DNA from: an uncultured Rubrobacteraceae bacterium
GTDB lineage: Bacteria > Actinomycetota > Rubrobacteria > Rubrobacterales > Rubrobacteraceae
Assembly (NCBI GenBank): GCA_902806065.1
Contig: CADCVE010000048.1
Coordinates: 4,186-36,785 of the forward strand
Direction: 5' to 3'
DNA length: 32,600 bases
Shown here: positions 912 through 31,067 of the stretch, piece after piece
How the letters are laid out: the number at the start of each line of letters is the position of its first letter
How positions within the stretch are numbered: the first letter of the stretch is position 1
Notes under the pieces: generated by a model
The model's input: the letters and a program-made list of their open reading frames with translations, nothing else
Databases searched by the model: none
Told to the model about the DNA's origin: nothing
Made by a program: the position numbers and the translations under genes

Positions 912-1949
912 TTAGGTGGTGACCAGGATGCCATTTCCTTCGACGACCTCGCCGACGACTATCGCTACCGGAGTGCCGTGTTTCTCGGCGGCGCGCACGA
1001 ACTCCGCCGACCGCTCTTTGGGGACCGCGACGAGCAGGCCGCCGCTGGTTTGCGGATCAAAGAGGGGCAGGAGGTAGTCGGTCTCCACGCCATCCGCTAA
1101 CACTTTATCTCCCAGGTATTCCTGGTTAGCGTTCAGGCCGCCCGGATAGCAGCCCTCGGCCGCCAGGGAGATGGCTCTCTCCCAGACCGGTACGTTGCCC
1201 CGGTGTACGACCGCCCCGACGCCGGAAGCTTCGAGCATCTCGGAGAGGTGTCCGAGGAAGCCGAACCCGGTGACGTCCGTCGCGGCCGAGACCGGGACTT
1301 CGCGCAGCGCGGCGGCGGCGGCCTTGTTTAGCGTGGCGGCTGCTTCGATAGCGTCTTCTATCTCCGCCTCCGAGACCAGGTCTCGTTTGAGGGCCGTGGT
1401 CAGGATGCCGACCCCGAGGGGCTTTGTGAGCACCAGCGAGTCGCCTACCTTCGCCCCGGCGTTCCTGACGACTTTGTCCTCCTCGACGAAGCCGGTGACC
1501 GAGAGGCCGTACTTGGGTTCGTCGTCCTGGATGGTGTGACCGCCGCAGAGCCTCGCTTCGGACTCGTCGATCTTGGATTGGCCGCCGGCCAGGATGTCGC
1601 GCAGTATGCTCATGTCAAGCGAGCAGGGGAACGCGACGAGGTTCATTGCCGTCAGCGGCACGCCGCCCATGGCGTAGATATCCGAGAGGGCGTTGGCAGC
1701 GGCGATCTGGCCGAAGCGGTACGGATCATCGACGATGGAGGTAAAGAAGTCCACCGACTGGAGCAGCAAGCCGCCCCCGAACGGGATGTATCCCGCGTCG
1801 TCCCGGGTCTCCATCCCGCTCACGAAACCCTCCGCCGCCTCCGGAGTGAGCCCTTTGAGTACTTGCTCCAGGTCCCCTGGAGCGAACTTAGATGCTCAAC
1901 CAGCCTTCTGTGAGTACTTCGTCAACCTTATACGTGTCTTTTCGTCCAT
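912..1949 (-). CDS. selD: Selenide, water dikinase SelD/SenC, a selenoprotein with Sec18 (UGA at 1896-1898)
   Basis: SelD makes selenophosphate from selenide and ATP. Read through one in-frame UGA, the frame from ATG 1949 gives 345 residues, the usual SelD length. The N-terminus reads LTKYSQKAG-U-ASKF, placing U18 and K21 exactly where E. coli SelD has catalytic Cys17 and Lys20. Other family residues follow: DD at 50-51, D67 in QSVDFFT, D90 in SDIYAMGG and GGHT at 136-139. Treating UGA as stop forces a start at 1823 and loses the active site. A hairpin at 1865-1883 lies 12 bases after the UGA, as in bacterial SECIS elements. The ATG is 3 bases past the senB stop, with GGAGG inside the senB end, so the two genes are coupled. 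In this context it also serves as SenC for selenoneine. Confidence 0.93.
1865..1883 (-). promoter_or_regulatory. SECIS-like hairpin for selD Sec18
   Basis: On the minus strand, 12 bases after the UGA, GCTCCAGG-GGA-CCTGGAGC forms a perfect 8-bp stem with a G-containing 3-base loop. Bacterial SECIS elements sit inside the coding region just 3' of the UGA and present a G in the apical loop to SelB. Both position and loop agree. It is also the 20-base coding stretch for the residues after Sec, so sequence constraint is shared. Confidence 0.75.
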
Positions 1950-1952
1950 GCT

Positions 1953-2936
1953 TTAAGTATAGCCTCCGATCTTGGTTGGAGACGTGGCCTCCATGACTTC
2001 CTCCACCAGACTACCCAGCGCCGCCTTCTCGCGTTCGGGGAGCACGAGGTATTTGCGTGCCTCGCACCGGGCTTCGAGCGTTAAGTAGAAATCCTCGTCA
2101 GTCTCGGCGCGGTACAGGAGCCGGGCCAGGGCCTCCTCGTCGCCCACCGGATAGTAGCCGGGGTAGTTCTCGCCGAGCATCCCGACGTTGCCGGGGATGT
2201 CCGAGGCTACCACCGGTACCCCCGAGGCAAGAGCCTCCGAGACCACGTTCGCCCCGCCCTCCATCACCGAGGTCTGCGCCAGGAGGCGCGACCGGGCCAG
2301 CAGACGCCGCGCCTCGCGCCAGGGCGTCTCGCCGAGCCAGCGGTAGCGGTGGTTCTTTAGGGTGTGTAGCCGGGCCTCTTCGGCGAACTTCTCGTTGTAG
2401 GGGTGGCCGGTGTGAGTCACGCGGATGCTGGAGGTGGGGGGGAGTAGTTGAGCCGCGAGGGCGGTGCGGAATGGGTCCTTCTCGTCTCTGAGGTGCCCGA
2501 TCACGCAGACGTCAAAGTATCCTTCAGCGGATAGCAGCGGCTGCATCGGATTGGCGGACTGGTAGATCGTACGGGCCTTGGCCCGGTGCCGAGGCTCCAA
2601 CTCCTCCAGCCCCTTCTCCTGCAGGACTATAAGGGCGGTCGCCAACTCCAACGACTCTCTGGCAGCTTCGTCAAACCGGATGTCCCGGTAGAGGTCGGTG
2701 CCGGTGAGGGTGACTATAAGGGGGCGTCCGGGTTGGGTAGCAGCGTAGCGTTTGATGGAAGGATGGCTGCGGAGGGCGTGCAGCGCGATCATTACGTTCG
2801 GCTCATTGCCGCTCCAGCTCTCCTCCAGCAGCACCTCATGGCCTGTCTGCCGCAGGAAGTGGGACCAGCGCACCGCAGTCGCCCGGTTGCCGTTGCGCAG
2901 CTTCGGTCCGGCCGGTGTTATGACGTTGACCTTCAT
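1953..2936 (-). CDS. senB: SenB-type selenosugar synthase (TIGR04348-like glycosyltransferase)
   Basis: SenB transfers selenium from selenophosphate onto a UDP-sugar, giving a 1-seleno-sugar for selenoneine synthesis. The 327-residue protein has the GT-B/GT4 look. Its N-terminus MKVNVITPAG, with GNRATAVRW, MIALHALRS and LTGTDLYRDI, is the hallmark block of the TIGR04348 group. A donor-site motif, EGGANVVSEALASGVPVVAS, lies near residues 240-260. I chose ATG 2936 because the family begins there; an upstream ATG at 2996 would add 20 unconserved residues and run into the divergent senA promoter. The next gene downstream, selD, starts 3 bases after the stop. Adjacency to selD and an EgtB-like gene separates this from an ordinary glycosyltransferase. 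The identification rests on motif recall plus context. Confidence 0.85.
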   Translation of the reverse strand: MKVNVITPAGPKLRNGNRATAVRWSHFLRQTGHEVLLEESWSGNEPNVMIALHALRSHPSIKRYAATQPGRPLIVTLTGTDLYRDIRFDEAARESLELATALIVLQEKGLEELEPRHRAKARTIYQSANPMQPLLSAEGYFDVCVIGHLRDEKDPFRTALAAQLLPPTSSIRVTHTGHPYNEKFAEEARLHTLKNHRYRWLGETPWREARRLLARSRLLAQTSVMEGGANVVSEALASGVPVVASDIPGNVGMLGENYPGYYPVGDEEALARLLYRAETDEDFYLTLEARCEARKYLVLPEREKAALGSLVEEVMEATSPTKIGGYT

Positions 2937-2984
2937 TGCGTCTGAAGTAGCCTCACGATCTCCAAATCGTACACTCTTCGGGCG

Positions 2985-2996
2985 ATGTAAGTACAT
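2985..2996. promoter_or_regulatory. Inverted repeat in the senB/senA divergent promoter
   Basis: ATGTA-AG-TACAT is a perfect 5-2-5 inverted repeat in the 138-base region between the two divergent sen transcripts. It is well placed for a shared operator. No convincing -10/-35 pair can be drawn around it, and its half-sites are short, so chance occurrence is possible. Confidence 0.3.
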
Positions 2997-3074
2997 ATCC
3001 CGCTACGCCCCGAACGGTTTTCGCTAGGATAATGTCAAAGAATCGAGACGGAGCCTGAGAGGGAGGTCGCTTAC

Positions 3075-4421
3075 ATGCAAGACACGCGCGAGCAGACAGA
3101 GCAACTGGCGGAGATGCTGGTAGATACCCGCAAGCGAACCCTGGATCTCATAAGCGACCTCGACGACGAGCAGATGCTGGGTCCGCAGCTGCGCATTGTC
3201 AACCCGCCGCTCTGGGAGATAGGGCACCTCGCCTGGTTCCAGGAATACTGGAACCTCCGGCGCCCGAAGGGTACCTGGTATGAGAGCGAAGACCCCTTCG
3301 GCCCCTCCATGCTGGACAACGCCGACGAACTCTACAACTCTATGGAGGTACCCCACGACACCCGCTGGGACTTGCCGCTCCTCTCTCGCGGCGAGACCAT
3401 GAGCTACATGCAACGTGTCCTCGACGACACCCTGCACAAGCTAAACACCGAAGGCCCCACGCCAGAGAACGCCTACTTCGCCCGCCTCGCCACCTTCCAC
3501 GAAGACATGCACGCCGAAGCCTTCACGTACACCCGTAACACTCACGGCCTCCCAATTCCACCCATCTCAACCCAGGACCCCACACTCTTAGAGACCCAAC
3601 CCACCGGCACTTACGAGGGCGACGCCGAAGTCCCCGGTGGCCAGTTCGTGCTCGGCGCCGGTGATACCAGCGGCCTACCCTTCGTCTTTGACAACGAGAA
3701 ATGGGGCCATCCGGTAGACGTCGCCCCCTTCAGGATGTCCCGCGCCCCCGTCACCAACGCCGCGTTCGCCGCCTTCGTCGATGACGCCGGCTACGAGCGC
3801 CGCGAGCTGTGGAGCGACGAGGGTTGGGCGTGGCGCGACTCCGTCTCCGCCGAACATCCGGTCTACTGGTCGAAGGAGGCGGACGGCTGGAACCATCGCA
3901 GGTTCGACCGGGTAGAGCCCTTGCCGCCGCACCAGCCCGTCATGCACGTCAATTGGTATGAGGCAGAGGCGTACTGCCGCTGGGCCGGGCGCAGACTGCC
4001 CACCGAGGCCGAGTGGGAGCTCGCCGCCTCCGCCGAACCCACGTCGGACGGTTCGACCATAACCTCCTACAAGCGTCTCTACCCGTGGGGAGACGAGCCC
4101 CCGACGCCCCGCCACGCAAACCTCGATGGACGGCTGCCAGGGTCCGTGGACGTCGCGGCCTTCCCCGAGGGCGATAGCGCGTTCGGGTTGCGGCAGATGA
4201 CCGGGAACACCTGGGAGTGGTGCTCGGACACCTTTGGGCCGTATCCTGGCTTCGTCCGCGATTCGTATAAGGACTACTCCGAGCCCTGGTTCAGCGGCCA
4301 CAAGGTGCTACGTGGCGGTTCCTGGGCTACTCGGGGGCGAATGCTCCGCAACACCTGGCGCAACTTCGCAACTCCGGACAGGCGGGACATCTTCGCCGGG
4401 TTCAGGACGTGTTCGCTTTGA
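3075..4421 (+). CDS. senA: Selenoneine synthase SenA (EgtB-like non-heme iron enzyme)
   Basis: This 448-residue EgtB homologue starts at ATG 3075 behind GGGAGG. Residues 1-155 form a DinB-like helical domain supplying the iron ligands: H51 in GHLAWFQEYW, then H142 and H146 in HEDMHAE. Residues from about 185 to the end are a formylglycine-generating-enzyme-like (C-type lectin fold) domain, with PVMHVNWYEAEAYCRWAG, RLPTEAEWE, NTWEWCSD and VLRGGSWATR. EgtB forms a C-S bond between hercynine and a thiol. SenA does the same with a selenosugar, and the enzyme then yields selenoneine. I call it SenA because the divergent neighbours are SenB and SelD, with no egtA, egtC or egtD beside it. Hercynine must come from an EgtD encoded elsewhere. 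An EgtB with ergothioneine activity cannot be excluded from sequence alone. Confidence 0.87.
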   Translation: MQDTREQTEQLAEMLVDTRKRTLDLISDLDDEQMLGPQLRIVNPPLWEIGHLAWFQEYWNLRRPKGTWYESEDPFGPSMLDNADELYNSMEVPHDTRWDLPLLSRGETMSYMQRVLDDTLHKLNTEGPTPENAYFARLATFHEDMHAEAFTYTRNTHGLPIPPISTQDPTLLETQPTGTYEGDAEVPGGQFVLGAGDTSGLPFVFDNEKWGHPVDVAPFRMSRAPVTNAAFAAFVDDAGYERRELWSDEGWAWRDSVSAEHPVYWSKEADGWNHRRFDRVEPLPPHQPVMHVNWYEAEAYCRWAGRRLPTEAEWELAASAEPTSDGSTITSYKRLYPWGDEPPTPRHANLDGRLPGSVDVAAFPEGDSAFGLRQMTGNTWEWCSDTFGPYPGFVRDSYKDYSEPWFSGHKVLRGGSWATRGRMLRNTWRNFATPDRRDIFAGFRTCSL

Positions 4422-5254
4422 GCGCCAACTACGAGAACGCACAGCCCCAACCTACTGATCTAGCGGCGTTAAAGCAACGCCAGCAGAAGGCTTGGTCCTC
4501 TGGCGACTATACGATGTTCGGCGCGGCATTCCTCATCATCAGCGAGTTACTGTGCGAGGCCGTGGATCTCAGGTCCGGCCAGAAGGTCCTCGACGTGGCG
4601 ACTGGCAGCGGTAATACCGCCCTGGCCGCCTCCCGCCGCTTCTGCGAGGTGACTGGCATAGACTACGTTCCGGCGCTACTCGAACGGGGCCGGGAACGCG
4701 CCGCCGCCGAGCGGTTGGAGGTTACCTTCGAGGAAGGCGACACTGAGAGTATCCCGTTCCCAGACGCCTCGTTCGACGTCGTGCTCTCGACGGTCGGGGC
4801 GATGTTTGCCCCCGACCAGGAGAAGGCGGCGAGCGAGCTGCTCCGGGTCTGCCGTCCGGGCGGCAGGATCGGGCTGGCCAACTGGACGCCCGATAGCTTC
4901 ACCGTGGCGATGAACGATGTCTTTGCCCGGTACCTGCCTCCGCCTCCCGGCCTCAAGCCGCCCGCGCGCTGGGGTACCGAAGAAGGGCTGCGGGAACTAC
5001 TCGGCGGTGGTACGAAAGGCATCAGTACTGTCCGGCGTAGTTTCGTGTTTCGCTACCGTTCGGTGCGGCACTACCTGGAGATGCTCCAGACCCACCTCGG
5101 TCCTACGCGAGAGGCTTTCCTGAGACTGGATCCGGCGCAGAGGGAGGGGCTGGAGGTTGACCTCGCGGACCTTATCGGTCGGTTCAACCGTTCCGGCGAT
5201 GCGACTATGGTGGTGCCAGGGGATTACTTGGAGGTCGTCGCGGTCAGGCACTGA
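4409..5254 (+). CDS. Class I SAM-dependent methyltransferase coupled to senA
   Basis: This 281-residue Rossmann-fold methyltransferase has motif I VLDVATGSGNTALAA at about 61-75, motif II with the ribose-binding acid (VTGIDYVP), PDASFDVVLSTVGAMF for motif IV, and RPGGRIGLANW after it. The GTG start at 4409 overlaps the last 13 bases of senA in another frame, so translation is likely coupled. The next ATG (4513) would remove the conserved LKQRQQKAWSSGDY leader. The family is broad (Methyltransf_11/25) and substrates cannot be read from motifs. It is not EgtD, which is larger and has a different architecture. Coupling to senA suggests selenoneine, a selenium intermediate, or a detoxifying Se-methylation as the substrate; that is inference. 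It ends 8 bases from the convergent DUF2723 gene. Confidence 0.8.
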   Translation: MFALSANYENAQPQPTDLAALKQRQQKAWSSGDYTMFGAAFLIISELLCEAVDLRSGQKVLDVATGSGNTALAASRRFCEVTGIDYVPALLERGRERAAAERLEVTFEEGDTESIPFPDASFDVVLSTVGAMFAPDQEKAASELLRVCRPGGRIGLANWTPDSFTVAMNDVFARYLPPPPGLKPPARWGTEEGLRELLGGGTKGISTVRRSFVFRYRSVRHYLEMLQTHLGPTREAFLRLDPAQREGLEVDLADLIGRFNRSGDATMVVPGDYLEVVAVRH

Positions 5255-24847: not shown

Positions 24848-25900
24848 ATGACTTACCCGCTCCGCTTCTCCCTCTTCACGGTCGCGCTCGGCGCGATCCT
24901 GTTCACGCTCGTGGGGTGTGGTGGTGAGCAGGACTCGTCCGAGCAGGGCTCTTCTGAGGAGGGTGCTGCCGAGGAGCAGTATGCGGCTTCGGCCGCAGAA
25001 CCGGCCGAGGCGCAGCCGCTCGCGGAGGCGCCGGTAGGGGAGGTGATCGAGGTAGGCAACGGGCCGGAGGGGATCGTAGCAGACCCCGAGACCGGTCTGG
25101 TCGCTGTCGGCCTCAGGGAGCCTAACGAGTTGGCGCTGGTCGATGGTAGCAGCGGGGAGGTGGTTCGCAGGGTGGAGTTGCCGGAGTCACCCCGCCACCT
25201 TGGCCTCGCCGGTTCCGGCGGCCCGGTGCTCGTGCCGGTCGAGGGCGAGTGGACCCTCATACAGGTGAGCCTGCCGGACGGAGAGAGCATCTCCGAAATA
25301 GACGTCGGCGCCGTGCCGCACGACGCGGACGCCGCCCCGGATGGCCGCATCTTCGTGGGCAACGAGTTCAGCGACACCATCTCGGTCATAGAGAACGGTG
25401 AATACCTGGAGACGATAGACGCCCCACTTCAGCCGGGCGGAGTGGCGACGACACAAGACGGACTCGTCGGCGTCATCGGAGTCAGCGCCCTGGAACTGGA
25501 GGTCTTCGAGGCTGACACACTGGACTCTCTGGGACGCGCGGACGCGGGCGAGGGACCGACTCACATACGGGCCGGCCCCGACAATCGCTTTTACGTAACG
25601 GACACGCGTGGCGACGCCATCCTCATCTACGAGCCCCGGCCCGAGCCGGAACAGGTCGAAAACGTCTCCCTGCCGGGACAGCCCTACGGGGTAGCCGTGG
25701 ACCCCGAGCGCGGCCACCTGTGGGTAACGCTCACCGCCGAGAACGAGCTGGTACAGTTCGCCCTGGAAGATGGCACACTCCGCGAACTCGCCCGTTACCC
25801 CACGGTCAGCGAGCCGAACACCGTAGCCGTGAACACGGCTACCGGACGGGTGTTCGTGACGGGCCGGGCGGAGGGGCAGCTACAGTTGATCGACCCGTGA
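24848..25900 (+). CDS. YVTN/YncE-like beta-propeller lipoprotein
   Basis: The 350-residue protein has a lipoprotein signal ending TLVGC with C24, an acidic Ser/Glu linker of about 45 residues, and then a series of roughly 40-residue beta-propeller blades. Blade signatures are GPEGIVADPETGLVAVGLR, HDADAAPDGRIFVGNEFS, GEGPTHIRAGPDNRFYVTDT, PYGVAVDPERGHLWVTLTA and PNTVAVNTATGRVFVTGRA. Such YVTN-type propellers are extracytoplasmic and usually bind partners rather than catalyse. It is the first gene of a redox operon, 62 bases before the selenoprotein redoxin, so it may be a scaffold for that system. The partner is unknown. Confidence 0.85.
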   Translation: MTYPLRFSLFTVALGAILFTLVGCGGEQDSSEQGSSEEGAAEEQYAASAAEPAEAQPLAEAPVGEVIEVGNGPEGIVADPETGLVAVGLREPNELALVDGSSGEVVRRVELPESPRHLGLAGSGGPVLVPVEGEWTLIQVSLPDGESISEIDVGAVPHDADAAPDGRIFVGNEFSDTISVIENGEYLETIDAPLQPGGVATTQDGLVGVIGVSALELEVFEADTLDSLGRADAGEGPTHIRAGPDNRFYVTDTRGDAILIYEPRPEPEQVENVSLPGQPYGVAVDPERGHLWVTLTAENELVQFALEDGTLRELARYPTVSEPNTVAVNTATGRVFVTGRAEGQLQLIDP

Positions 25901-25962
25901 GAGAGTTCGGGATCAGGCGCGCAAGAGCGGTAAACTCTACCTATGCAAAGCAGGAGAACGAG

Positions 25963-26451
25963 ATGAGAAGCACCGCCTATCTGGCTGCAATGTTAGTGCT
26001 GGTAGCCTTATTGGCCGTGTCGTGTGGCGGGTCTGGCGGTGCGGCCTCTGATTTTAGCGCCACGACCGTCGAGGGGGATGAGTTTAGTCTGTCGGAGAAG
26101 CGGGGCGAGGTCGTCGCGCTGTACTTCATGGCCGGCTACTGAGACAACTGCATACCTGAGGCCCGTGCTTGGTCTCAAATTCAAGCGGAATACGAAGATG
26201 AGGGGCTCGAGTTACTGATGATCGCGACCGATCCCAATGACACGCCTGAGACTATCGAGGGTTTCCGACAGAGGGCCGACATTGCACCGCTTCCCTGGGC
26301 CGTGGATGAGAACGGAGAGGTCTCACGTGCTATGGATGCCAACGCCCTTGAGACGACCGTGATACTGGACAGGGAGGGAGAAGTAACCTTCAGGGACGCT
26401 ACCTCGACCGACTACGAAACCCTCCGGCGCGAGCTCGAGGCGGTACTCTGA
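25963..26451 (+). CDS. TlpA-like redoxin lipoprotein, a selenoprotein with UxxC active site (Sec60)
   Basis: Read through the UGA at 26140-26142, one frame gives 162 residues: a lipoprotein signal (LLAVSC, C21), then a thioredoxin fold. VVALYFMAGY-U60-D-N-C63-IPEARAW aligns with the TlpA/ResA active site CxxC, with U in place of the first, nucleophilic Cys. ELLMIATDPNDTPE and TTVILDREGEVTFRD continue the fold on the far side. If UGA were a stop, both pieces would be non-functional. A SECIS-like hairpin follows at 26157-26177. E130 occupies the usual cis-Pro position before TTVILD, which is unusual. Its membrane reductant is probably the CcdA protein encoded next. Likely a surface thiol or peroxide reductase; the substrate is unknown. 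Confidence 0.88.
26157..26177 (+). promoter_or_regulatory. SECIS-like hairpin for the redoxin Sec60
   Basis: TGAGGCC-CGTGCTT-GGTCTCA forms a 7-bp stem with one G-T pair and a 7-base loop containing G. It begins 14 bases after the UGA, nearly the same distance as the selD hairpin (12). The position fits a bacterial SECIS inside the coding frame. The stem is moderate, so binding by SelB needs testing. Confidence 0.62.
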
Positions 26452-26492
26452 ACGAACTGCAGCAGCTACTCACCGGCTGGCTCTCCGGGCTG

Positions 26493-27209
26493 GTGGTGGT
26501 GCTCCCGGTGGGCTACGCTTTCGGGGCCGGGATGGTCGCGGCGGTGAACCCCTGCGGCTTCGCGATGCTGCCGGCCTATCTCTCTCTGTACCTCGGCGCC
26601 AAGGAGGAAGACTTCGCGAAGCTCTCGCCCGCATCCCGAATGCTGCGGGCGCTTCTGGTCGGCGGGAGCGTCTCCTCGGGTTTCATCCTCCTCTTTGGGC
26701 TGGCCGGTCTCATGATCTCGGCCGGGGGTGGCGCGCTCCTTGGAGTGATGCCCGTCCTGGCCGTTTTTATTGGTATCGCCCTGATCCTGCTCGGACTGTG
26801 GACGTTTGCTGGACGCACCCTGTACATTGGCGTCTTCGAGCGGCTGGCGAACCGGTTGGGAGATCCCACCAACGTGAGTGCGCGGGGCTTTTTCCTATTC
26901 GGGCTCGCCTACGGCGCGGCCTCCCTAAGCTGCACCCTGCCGGTCTTTCTGGTAGTGGTCGGGGGCGGTATCTCGTCGGACGGCTTCACGGCCGGGGTGG
27001 GGCAGTTCCTCGGCTATGGTCTGGGCATGGCCTCGGTGCTCGTGGTGCTTACCCTCGCGCTGGCACTCTTCAAGCAGGGGTTGGTCAAGCGGATAAAGAG
27101 CGTCGTGCCCTACACGCGGCTTGCCTCCGCGGTCCTCCTCATGCTGGCGGGCGTGTACATGATCCTCTACTGGGCTTCGTCCCCTGTTTTGAGTGGCGTG
27201 CCCGGATGA
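26493..27209 (+). CDS. CcdA-type transmembrane thiol reductant transporter
   Basis: CcdA/DsbD-like proteins carry electrons from cytosolic thioredoxin across the membrane to extracytoplasmic redoxins. The 238-residue protein has six membrane segments. The two family Cys are present: C21 in AAVNPCGFAMLPAYL and C147 in AASLSCTLPVF, at the usual positions in helices 1 and 4. The start is uncertain: GTG 26493 opens the listed frame, but the frame extends upstream through NELQQLLTGWLSGL to a CTG at 26448 that overlaps the redoxin stop as CTGA. The extra residues look native, so the true start may be that CTG. The stop overlaps the next ATG by 4 bases. The redoxin upstream is its obvious client. 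Confidence 0.88.
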   Translation: MVVLPVGYAFGAGMVAAVNPCGFAMLPAYLSLYLGAKEEDFAKLSPASRMLRALLVGGSVSSGFILLFGLAGLMISAGGGALLGVMPVLAVFIGIALILLGLWTFAGRTLYIGVFERLANRLGDPTNVSARGFFLFGLAYGAASLSCTLPVFLVVVGGGISSDGFTAGVGQFLGYGLGMASVLVVLTLALALFKQGLVKRIKSVVPYTRLASAVLLMLAGVYMILYWASSPVLSGVPG

Positions 27210-27883
27210 ACCAACGCTGGGGACTCCTGAAGACCTATGTCCTTGCTCTAGCCGTAGCGTTGTTGGTGGTTGGTTGTGGAGCGTCGAATGAGGGTTCCGG
27301 CGGTTCCGAGGGTGGCGGGGAGCAGGCGAGCGATTCCTCCGGGGAAGAGGTGTCAGTGGGGGAGACCGATGCGATTGTCTGGGGCACGGGTGACCGGGGC
27401 GCTGTGCTCGCGCATGGGGCTGCCTACGACGCCGCGAGCTGGGAGGACCAGGGCCGGACGCTGGCGGAGAACGGCGTGGTGGCCCTCGCGGTCGAGGAGA
27501 CTTCGGCTTCTAACGTGCGGTCCGCCATCAACTACCTGAAAGAAGAGAGCGGTGTGGAGAGTGTGGCTTTGATCGGGGCGAGCGCGGGCTCCCGGGGGGT
27601 GCTGGAGGCTGCGGAGGCGAGCTCCGAAGAGGTAAGCCAGATCATCCTCCTCTCAGGCATGGGTGATGTCTCTGGCCTCGGGGAGCAACCGAAGCTCTTT
27701 GTCGCCAGCGAGGGAGAAGGGGGACTGGCGGAAGAGGTCAGCCGGATGGCCGAGGAAGCCCCCGGAGCCGAGAACGAGGCGCTTCTACTCCCCGGCGACG
27801 CCCACGCCCAGGCTATCTTCCAGACGGAAGAGGGGGAGCGCCTCACACAGACCATCGTGGAGAGGTTGGAGGAGTACGGGTAA
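27206..27883 (+). CDS. Alpha/beta-hydrolase-fold lipoprotein
   Basis: The 225-residue protein starts at ATG 27206, overlapping the ccdA stop (ATGA); a longer frame back to 26798 merely runs through ccdA. A lipoprotein signal ends LLVVGC (C24), followed by a Gly/Ser/Glu linker. The hydrolase fold shows AVLAHGAAYDAASWEDQG for the early strand and oxyanion region, VALIGASAGSRG with the nucleophile elbow (S126), and LLLPGDAHAQAIF with a likely catalytic His. It lacks a recognisable lid and is short. The activity is likely an esterase or peptidase at the outer face of the membrane; the substrate is unknown. It is the last gene of the redox operon. Confidence 0.82.
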   Translation: MNQRWGLLKTYVLALAVALLVVGCGASNEGSGGSEGGGEQASDSSGEEVSVGETDAIVWGTGDRGAVLAHGAAYDAASWEDQGRTLAENGVVALAVEETSASNVRSAINYLKEESGVESVALIGASAGSRGVLEAAEASSEEVSQIILLSGMGDVSGLGEQPKLFVASEGEGGLAEEVSRMAEEAPGAENEALLLPGDAHAQAIFQTEEGERLTQTIVERLEEYG

Positions 27884-30111: not shown

Positions 30112-31067
30112 GAGGCTCCGCCAATAGGTAACTTCTCAAGGCTTGCGGCGAGGACGACTCTCCCAACGGTAGCGGGTCCAAGCTTCTCGGACGAGCCTGC
30201 TCACGGTGACGACCACCTCGGAGAAGGCGATCCAGAAGTCGATAACTCTATCCCTGCGCTCGGTACACCATACGAGCTTCTTGTGAGCGTTATTCCAGGA
30301 GTTCGTGCGCTCCACTACCCAACGTTTCGTGGCACCAAGCGGGGCCGGTTTCCCTCTCTCGGAGATCACGGGCTCCAGGCCACGAGACTTTAATTTCTCG
30401 CGGGTAGTATGCGAATCGTAGCCGCGATCGAGGTGGACTCTCATCTGCTCGGGTAGCGGCCCGATCACCTCCAGGATGTCTAGGGTCTTATCCAAAAGCG
30501 GCGAGTCATGGCGATTGGCCGGTGCGGCTATGGCTCCGAGTGGGATGCCGTTGGCGTCTACGATCGTGGAGCGTTTGATGCCTTGCTTTCCCCGATCCAC
30601 CGGGCTTTTGCCTGCCTTCTCACCACCACAAGGAGCCTTCGTGATGCAGCAGTCGACGGCCACCTCGGAGAGCTCCAAACCAACGATGCGATCGTAGGCA
30701 TCGAGCGTTATCTCCTGCAGTTTCTCCATTACCCCAGAGCCGATCCATTCATCGCGCCGACGACGCAAGGTAGTCGCCGAACACGACTCATCGGAGATCC
30801 TCTCGTAGGCGCAGCCGAAAACGAGTACCTGCACGAGTTTGTCAAAGACCAACCTGTCGTTGATGCGGGGTCGATGAGAACCCCAAGGGTGTTTCACTTC
30901 CCTTGGTGGCAATAGGTTGCAGAACTGCTCCCAGATGGGATCGATGATGTATGGTGGCAAAGCGGGCACGGAGAGGCTCCTTCTTTGGGTAGCTTCGAGA
31001 ACTCCCCAAATGATCGAGCATCCGTGCCCGCTTTACATTCGCCCGCATCCCCTATTGGCGGAAGCTC
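30112..31067. mobile_element. Complete IS5-family insertion sequence (956 bp)
   Basis: The left end GAGGCTCCGCCAATAGG (30112-30128) and the right end CCTATTGGCGGAAGCTC (31051-31067) are inverted repeats matching at 15 of 17 positions. Direct repeats TTA flank the element at 30109-30111 and 31068-31070, as expected for an IS5-type target duplication. The single transposase gene fills the interior on the minus strand. Intact ends, target repeats and an unbroken transposase suggest recent insertion and possible activity. Confidence 0.88.
30136..30969 (-). CDS. IS5-family transposase
   Basis: The 277-residue transposase starts at GTG 30969 behind AAGGAG. The N-terminus is the DUF4096-like segment (IIDPIWEQFCNLLPP, HPWGSHRPRINDRLVFD). 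The DDE triad is visible as D106 in VAVDCCITKAP, D181 in VHLDRGYDSH and E220 in RWVVERTNSWNNAHKK, the last with the Y/W-(2)-R-(3)-E-(6)-R-type layout. TIVDANGIPLGAI and APANRHDSPLL are also standard for the family. It cuts and joins the ends of the element at 30112-31067. The reading frame is unbroken. Confidence 0.93.
   Translation of the reverse strand: MPALPPYIIDPIWEQFCNLLPPREVKHPWGSHRPRINDRLVFDKLVQVLVFGCAYERISDESCSATTLRRRRDEWIGSGVMEKLQEITLDAYDRIVGLELSEVAVDCCITKAPCGGEKAGKSPVDRGKQGIKRSTIVDANGIPLGAIAAPANRHDSPLLDKTLDILEVIGPLPEQMRVHLDRGYDSHTTREKLKSRGLEPVISERGKPAPLGATKRWVVERTNSWNNAHKKLVWCTERRDRVIDFWIAFSEVVVTVSRLVREAWTRYRWESRPRRKP

Follow-up and report, generated by a model that had tools for sequence, protein, structure and literature searches.

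The DNA analyzed here (henceforth the window) is a stretch of 32,600 nucleotides from an uncultured Rubrobacteraceae bacterium. On its plus strand, positions 25963-26451 are open throughout except for a TGA at 26140-26142. The first-pass annotation had claimed that two adjacent frames join through this TGA without a frameshift, and the translation bore this out, yielding a single protein that begins with MRSTAYLAAMLVLVALLAVSC and reads FMAGY-U-DNCIPEA around the TGA. The features in and around this gene are given below, of which the ribosome-binding site and the lipobox were recognized in the sequence itself.

912-1949, minus strand: selD (selenophosphate synthetase), with a TGA/Sec of its own (QKAGUASK) and a hairpin after the UGA
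24848-25900, plus strand: upstream beta-propeller lipoprotein, adjoining the redoxin gene in the nearest relative (G007) as well and lying near it in G001 and G037
25952-25956, plus strand: likely ribosome-binding site (AGGAG), 6 nt upstream of the ATG
25963-26451, plus strand: predicted Sec-containing TlpA/ResA-like redoxin lipoprotein of 162 aa and ~17.6 kDa (142 aa and 15.5 kDa once the signal is cleaved)
26023-26025, plus strand: lipobox Cys21 (LAVSC), end of the signal peptide
26140-26142, plus strand: in-frame TGA, the putative Sec60 and nucleophile of U-D-N-C; TGA in 10 and TGC in 7 orthologues
26149-26151, plus strand: Cys63, resolving residue of UxxC, invariant across 17 orthologues
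26157-26177, plus strand: bacterial SECIS-type hairpin (-8.2 kcal/mol) with a 7-bp stem and, after a spacing of 21 nt from the UGA, a 7-nt loop (CGUGCUU)
26448-27209, plus strand: CcdA-family membrane electron carrier with two Cys (36 and 162), its start overlapping the redoxin stop (CTGA)
27206-27883, plus strand: downstream alpha/beta-hydrolase-like lipoprotein with a weak Pfam match below the cut-off, following CcdA in G007 too (65%)

Frame pairs joined through TGA were frequent, as 14 sites in the window passed a loose mechanical filter. Two such frames are unremarkable on their own, and it is homology that raises the redoxin site above chance. We consider that the full gene almost certainly encodes one intact, membrane-anchored Sec redox protein. 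The designation as a UxxC redoxin lipoprotein was supported by the lipobox, which recurred in relatives (e.g., LAGC, VAGC, LAAC, and LSAC), the redoxin fold, the Sec machinery in the genome, and a hairpin that conforms to the SECIS rule. Standard annotation in Rubrobacteraceae would split the gene into two, as had been anticipated, but the downstream piece, expected to be recorded as a fragment, was absent from the list of open reading frames at the 80-aa threshold.

Among 39 Rubrobacteraceae genomes, we could align 17 orthologues over the active site, and a CcdA-type gene adjoined the redoxin gene in all 17 loci. The CcdA-like protein matched no Pfam or NCBIfam model of its own, and its identity was taken from annotated homologues (some on plasmids) that were 37-40% identical to it. 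The redoxin stop overlapped the CcdA start in most loci as GTGA (CTGA in the window), while a gap of ~370 nt separated the two genes in a single exceptional locus (L067). The other two neighbors in the window were considered as disulfide substrates and rejected. Neither the propeller nor the hydrolase-like lipoprotein possesses a Cys beyond the lipobox (the lipobox Cys is the sole one in the latter), and both are unlikely to be substrates since they lack redox cysteines. In 7 of the 8 loci of a sister Sec clade (L048-L053 and L063-L070; note that one of the seven is a partial match and that the eighth contig is cut off), a DUF3179 lipoprotein bearing a CPLC motif was encoded directly upstream of the Sec redoxin and may be its partner. 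This lipoprotein was otherwise rare in Rubrobacteraceae. Further downstream in the window, the open reading frame at 30136-30969 (minus strand) resembles an IS5-type transposase, judged by the appearance of its sequence only.

Codon 60 and its decoding

The first-pass annotation placed the UGA exactly at the nucleophilic Cys of a CxxC motif. The orthologues agreed with this placement, as codon 60 was TGA in 10 of the 17 and TGC (Cys) in the remaining 7, and every close homologue carried either Cys or Sec at residue 60. The motif was UDNC in the window and G007, UPKC, UPRC, or UGRC in eight more divergent TGA forms, and CGSC in the seven TGC forms. A scan of GTDB contigs with the single protein retrieved no relative, and the alignment-based scan retrieved 12. 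Rubrobacter taiwanensis (Cys form) is among the named carriers, as are several Rubrobacter MAGs. When the search was extended to 396 genomes across the phylum, no further TGA-bearing member was detected, and most of the translated matches outside the family were ordinary TlpA proteins of the WATWCPPC type. In a different family of this phylum, a distantly related TlpA-like redoxin (L035, locus position ~1612-1614) likewise has a TGA in frame where the first Cys would be (WUPVC), and its genome carries a tRNA-Sec (80.5 bits). The best tree implied two changes between Sec and Cys, albeit a single Sec clade was not rejected (p-AU 0.27), and both one and two changes are compatible with the tree.

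The proteins of the window and G007 were 73% identical. After the TGA, dN was 0.17 against a dS of 1.32, with 47 of the 80 differences falling at third positions, and thus we regard the portion past the TGA as being under purifying selection and, by this measure, translated. The reading of the gene as a Cys redoxin gene that was either made a pseudogene by a nonsense mutation or misread in base calling, for which one base change (TGC to TGA) would suffice and which the many draft assemblies might invite, has next to no chance of being correct, and we take it as already refuted, together with a fortuitous open reading frame, by the same TGA in 10 independent genomes (some with proteins merely 47-50% identical to that of the window), by the selection past it, and by the Sec machinery in the genome.

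The genome of the window possesses a complete set of selA, selB, selC (tRNA-Sec), and selD. The genes for SelA (500 bits), SelB (354 bits), and tRNA-Sec (66.5 bits; anticodon tca by ARAGORN) were adjacent to one another on contig C94, and the product of selD in the window would donate the selenium for Sec. The Sec-containing selD is grouped at 912-4421 with senB and senA (413.5 bits for SenB and 527.8 bits for SenA) in a cluster for the synthesis of selenoneine, and selenophosphate would thus supply two pathways here. A UbiE/MenG-like class I methyltransferase gene adjoins senA (4409-5254), with no EgtD match listed for it. Among the 10 TGA genomes, tRNA-Sec was above the family cut-off in 7, and a full selB or tRNA-Sec was not found in the other 3 (G007, G036, and G037), which are incomplete MAGs (75-88%). 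The presence of the machinery did not separate the genomes with Sec forms from those with Cys forms, as it occurred in both groups. Five selenoproteins have been assigned to Rubrobacter xylanophilus (PMC1794560).

The hairpin that had been noticed 14 bases past the UGA was located at 26157-26177, and comprises TGAGGCC (26157-26163), the loop CGTGCTT (26164-26170), and GGTCTCA (26171-26177). The letters of the stem were the same in G007. According to the published rule, a bacterial SECIS has a loop of 3-9 nt on a stem of 4-16 bp, a G within the first two loop positions, a distance of 16-37 nt from the UGA, and an MFE of -7.5 or lower (PMC13188914). The hairpin in the window passed all four criteria of this rule, which about 5.3% of the coding positions in the window pass by chance. 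Compared with synonymous shuffles, no unusual stability was detected for this hairpin (z = +0.98) or for that of selD in the window, and we left folding energy out of the evidence for this lack of signal. Neither was third-position conservation near the UGA significant between the window and G007, the sole pair available. Considering the chance rate and the ordinary stability, we regard the hairpin as consistent with, but not proof of, Sec insertion. The SECIS evidence by itself is modest, since the stability is ordinary and 5 of the 8 sequences of the other Sec clade failed the strict criteria.

The eight members of this sister clade (L022-L029) share a different and far stronger element, which occupies columns 15-68 of alignment A2 (column 1 being the T of the UGA codon). 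It consists of a hairpin of 14 bp, two pairs of which show compensatory changes, and of a second, 9-bp hairpin directly abutting it. The second hairpin, which is not present in the window, reads GGCCTACGA-GGA-TCGTGGGCT. Its codons were synonymously almost invariant: over codons 16-21, 168 of 168 pair comparisons among the eight sequences were alike at synonymous sites, compared with 131 of 248 for codons 31-43. The two abutting hairpins may form a two-part SECIS, as the apical loop of the second (GGA) matches the loop predicted for the selD hairpin in the window.

The ordinary thermodynamics of the hairpin, as well as the use of UGA as the normal stop of the redoxin gene itself, could be read as signs that translation truly terminates at codon 60, apart from occasional near-cognate read-through by Trp or Cys, giving a lipopeptide of 59 aa and a little full-length protein. 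We find this very hard to believe, as the residue of the orthologues at this site was always the catalytic Cys, SelB, SelA, tRNA-Sec, and a TGA-containing SelD were all present, and the downstream sequence was conserved like a functional domain. On the comparative evidence, the UGA of codon 60 would instead be decoded as Sec by SelB and tRNA-Sec, with the short SECIS hairpin just 3' to it.

The active site and its genomic context

The redoxin exceeded the Pfam cut-offs of PF00578 (AhpC-TSA; 61.4 bits versus 26), the best match, and PF08534 (Redoxin; 49.2 versus 26.6). A structure model from the single sequence was poor (pLDDT 50), and was replaced by an AlphaFold2 model from a 13-sequence alignment (pLDDT 93.6; pTM 0.89). 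The best PDB matches of the latter were ResA structures with a TM of ~0.9, and a ResA/TlpA-type thioredoxin fold is predicted with high confidence. The redox motif is C/UxxC, with Sec predicted at the first position in the window and nine relatives. The canonical cis-proline of the fold was replaced family-wide, by Glu in all 10 Sec forms and by Asp in all 7 Cys forms (the ALETT/ALDTT column of alignment A1), and a Geodermatophilus homologue likewise had Asp at this position. The Glu/Asp site corresponds in the alignment to the second proline in the PLPTS of ResA (4nmu), which we take to be the cis-proline. A Glu in place of the cis-proline is unusual for a thiol-disulfide oxidoreductase.

The Sec and Cys forms also differed in their surroundings. 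MerA was encoded near 6 of the 7 Cys forms (613 and 617 bits for TIGR02053 in the two scanned), a homologue of ArsR/SmtB regulators near all 7, and a MerE-like small protein in between in the Cys-form loci examined. No merA was found beside the Sec forms, and neither merA nor other mer genes adjoined the pair in the window. Genome-wide, MerA was detected in 6 of the 7 Cys-form genomes and none of the 10 Sec-form genomes at the set threshold (for the genome of the window, E 1e-130); the Fisher p of 0.0006 ignores relatedness and thus describes the pattern rather than testing a cause. Several Gram-positive lineages carried redoxin-CcdA pairs inside or next to mer operons, as seen in Rubrobacteraceae (L057-L062) and on three plasmids (L102, L103, and L106) from Staphylococcus, Mycobacterium, and Nocardioides. 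The order in the Staphylococcus plasmid pSK76 is merR-TlpA-CcdA-merT-merA-merB. The role of redoxin-CcdA in mer operons seems little described.

As selenols bind Hg(II) very tightly, and as mer operons contain or adjoin both the Cys orthologues and more remote redoxins paired with CcdA, the selenoprotein might still serve the handling of mercury or other soft metals, as its Cys cousins presumably do. We hold this to be improbable, as no merA was seen next to the Sec forms and their genomes had none at the threshold applied. A tentative and rather doubtful explanation for the pattern is that Sec occurs only outside mercury operons in this mer-shared lineage, with the coupled Asp/Glu at the cis-proline site, because Hg(II) would poison the selenol in a mercury-exposed envelope; in addition, CcdA synthesis would hinge on the selenium supply via the stop/start overlap. 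We found no mention of the Cys/Sec contrast with mer operons or of the coupled Asp/Glu difference in the literature searched, the coverage of which was incomplete. Whichever the cause, the choice between Cys and Sec tracks the genomic context (inside or outside a mercury operon) as well as another active-site residue. As sister genomes contain close Cys orthologues and the electron-donor gene is a constant neighbor, the family lends itself as a natural experiment on the reasons for which bacteria retain or abandon selenium in a given enzyme.

As to the chemistry, the first-pass annotation suggested that the protein would be a strong thiol or peroxide reductase. Selenols are good peroxidatic nucleophiles, the best Pfam match was AhpC-TSA, and some Cys-form operons contain an AhpC/TSA gene past the redoxin-CcdA pair on its downstream side, all of which would suit a peroxide reductase akin to AhpC/peroxiredoxins. 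This role is unlikely, albeit the least so among the alternatives, as the peroxiredoxin motif TxxC/TxxU was not matched (the site is AGY-U-DNC), the UxxC resides in a ResA-type fold, and the invariant CcdA partner suits a thiol-disulfide relay. The same three characteristics, namely the motif, the partner, and the fold, lead us to favor disulfide over peroxide chemistry, and the most probable role of the protein is that of a thiol-disulfide reductase outside the cytoplasm that receives its electrons from CcdA.

Altogether, we propose with considerable confidence that the redoxin of the window is a true selenoprotein, in which UGA60 is decoded as Sec via SelB, tRNA-Sec, and the SECIS. Its lipobox suggests that the product is exported and held by a lipid anchor at the outer membrane surface of the cell, where the UxxC site of the ResA/TlpA-type redoxin would cycle between a selenenylsulfide and the selenol/thiol. 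Given the invariant pairing and the translational overlap, the neighboring CcdA would re-reduce the redoxin with electrons brought across the membrane from cytosolic thioredoxin, and the redoxin would in turn hand them to oxidized targets in the envelope, the direction of flow being the presumed one. The family would share its ancestry with the Cys-using redoxin-CcdA pairs that reside in Gram-positive mer operons, and the Sec versions were found only outside such operons.

Comparison with known systems

The redoxin resembles ResA/TlpA (e.g., Bacillus ResA; PDB 1st9 and 4nmu) in the ResA-type thioredoxin fold, the membrane anchor, the two-residue redox motif, and CcdA as the likely donor. It departs from them in having Sec for the first Cys and Glu for the cis-proline, in scoring 60.3 bits against the curated ResA cut-off of 170 (NF002854), and in that no cytochrome c maturation genes were seen adjoining it. 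Two curated models with Sec in the redox site, NF053656 (TUGYCR thioredoxin-fold selenoprotein) and NF041054 (ResA-like WAxxUGC), are weakly similar to the redoxin, which differs in motif and is far under their cut-offs (24.5 versus 100 and 32.7 versus 300, respectively). As no curated NCBIfam model reached its cut-off for this protein, we regard it as a well-supported extracytoplasmic Sec redoxin, on comparative grounds, beyond the coverage of such models.

The mer-operon pairs (Staphylococcus pSK76, the plasmids of Mycobacterium dioxanotrophicus and Nocardioides JS614, and a contig of Rubrobacter taiwanensis) share the adjacent redoxin and CcdA genes with the window, and the R. taiwanensis redoxin is a close orthologue of that in the window. 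Unlike the latter, these pairs use Cys and adjoin merA and other mer genes.

The predicted UxxC selenoprotein families reported previously include a Prx-like thiol:disulfide oxidoreductase (PF00578), a Redoxin family (PF08534), and a thiol-disulfide isomerase-like family (cd02966) (PMC13188914). The redoxin of the window is like them in bearing UxxC in an AhpC-TSA/Redoxin domain, although that study, compared here by family names, does not name a CcdA-coupled lipoprotein lineage of Rubrobacteraceae. UxxC redoxins of PF00578/PF08534 are already known as predicted bacterial selenoproteins, and the redoxin predicted here adds to them.
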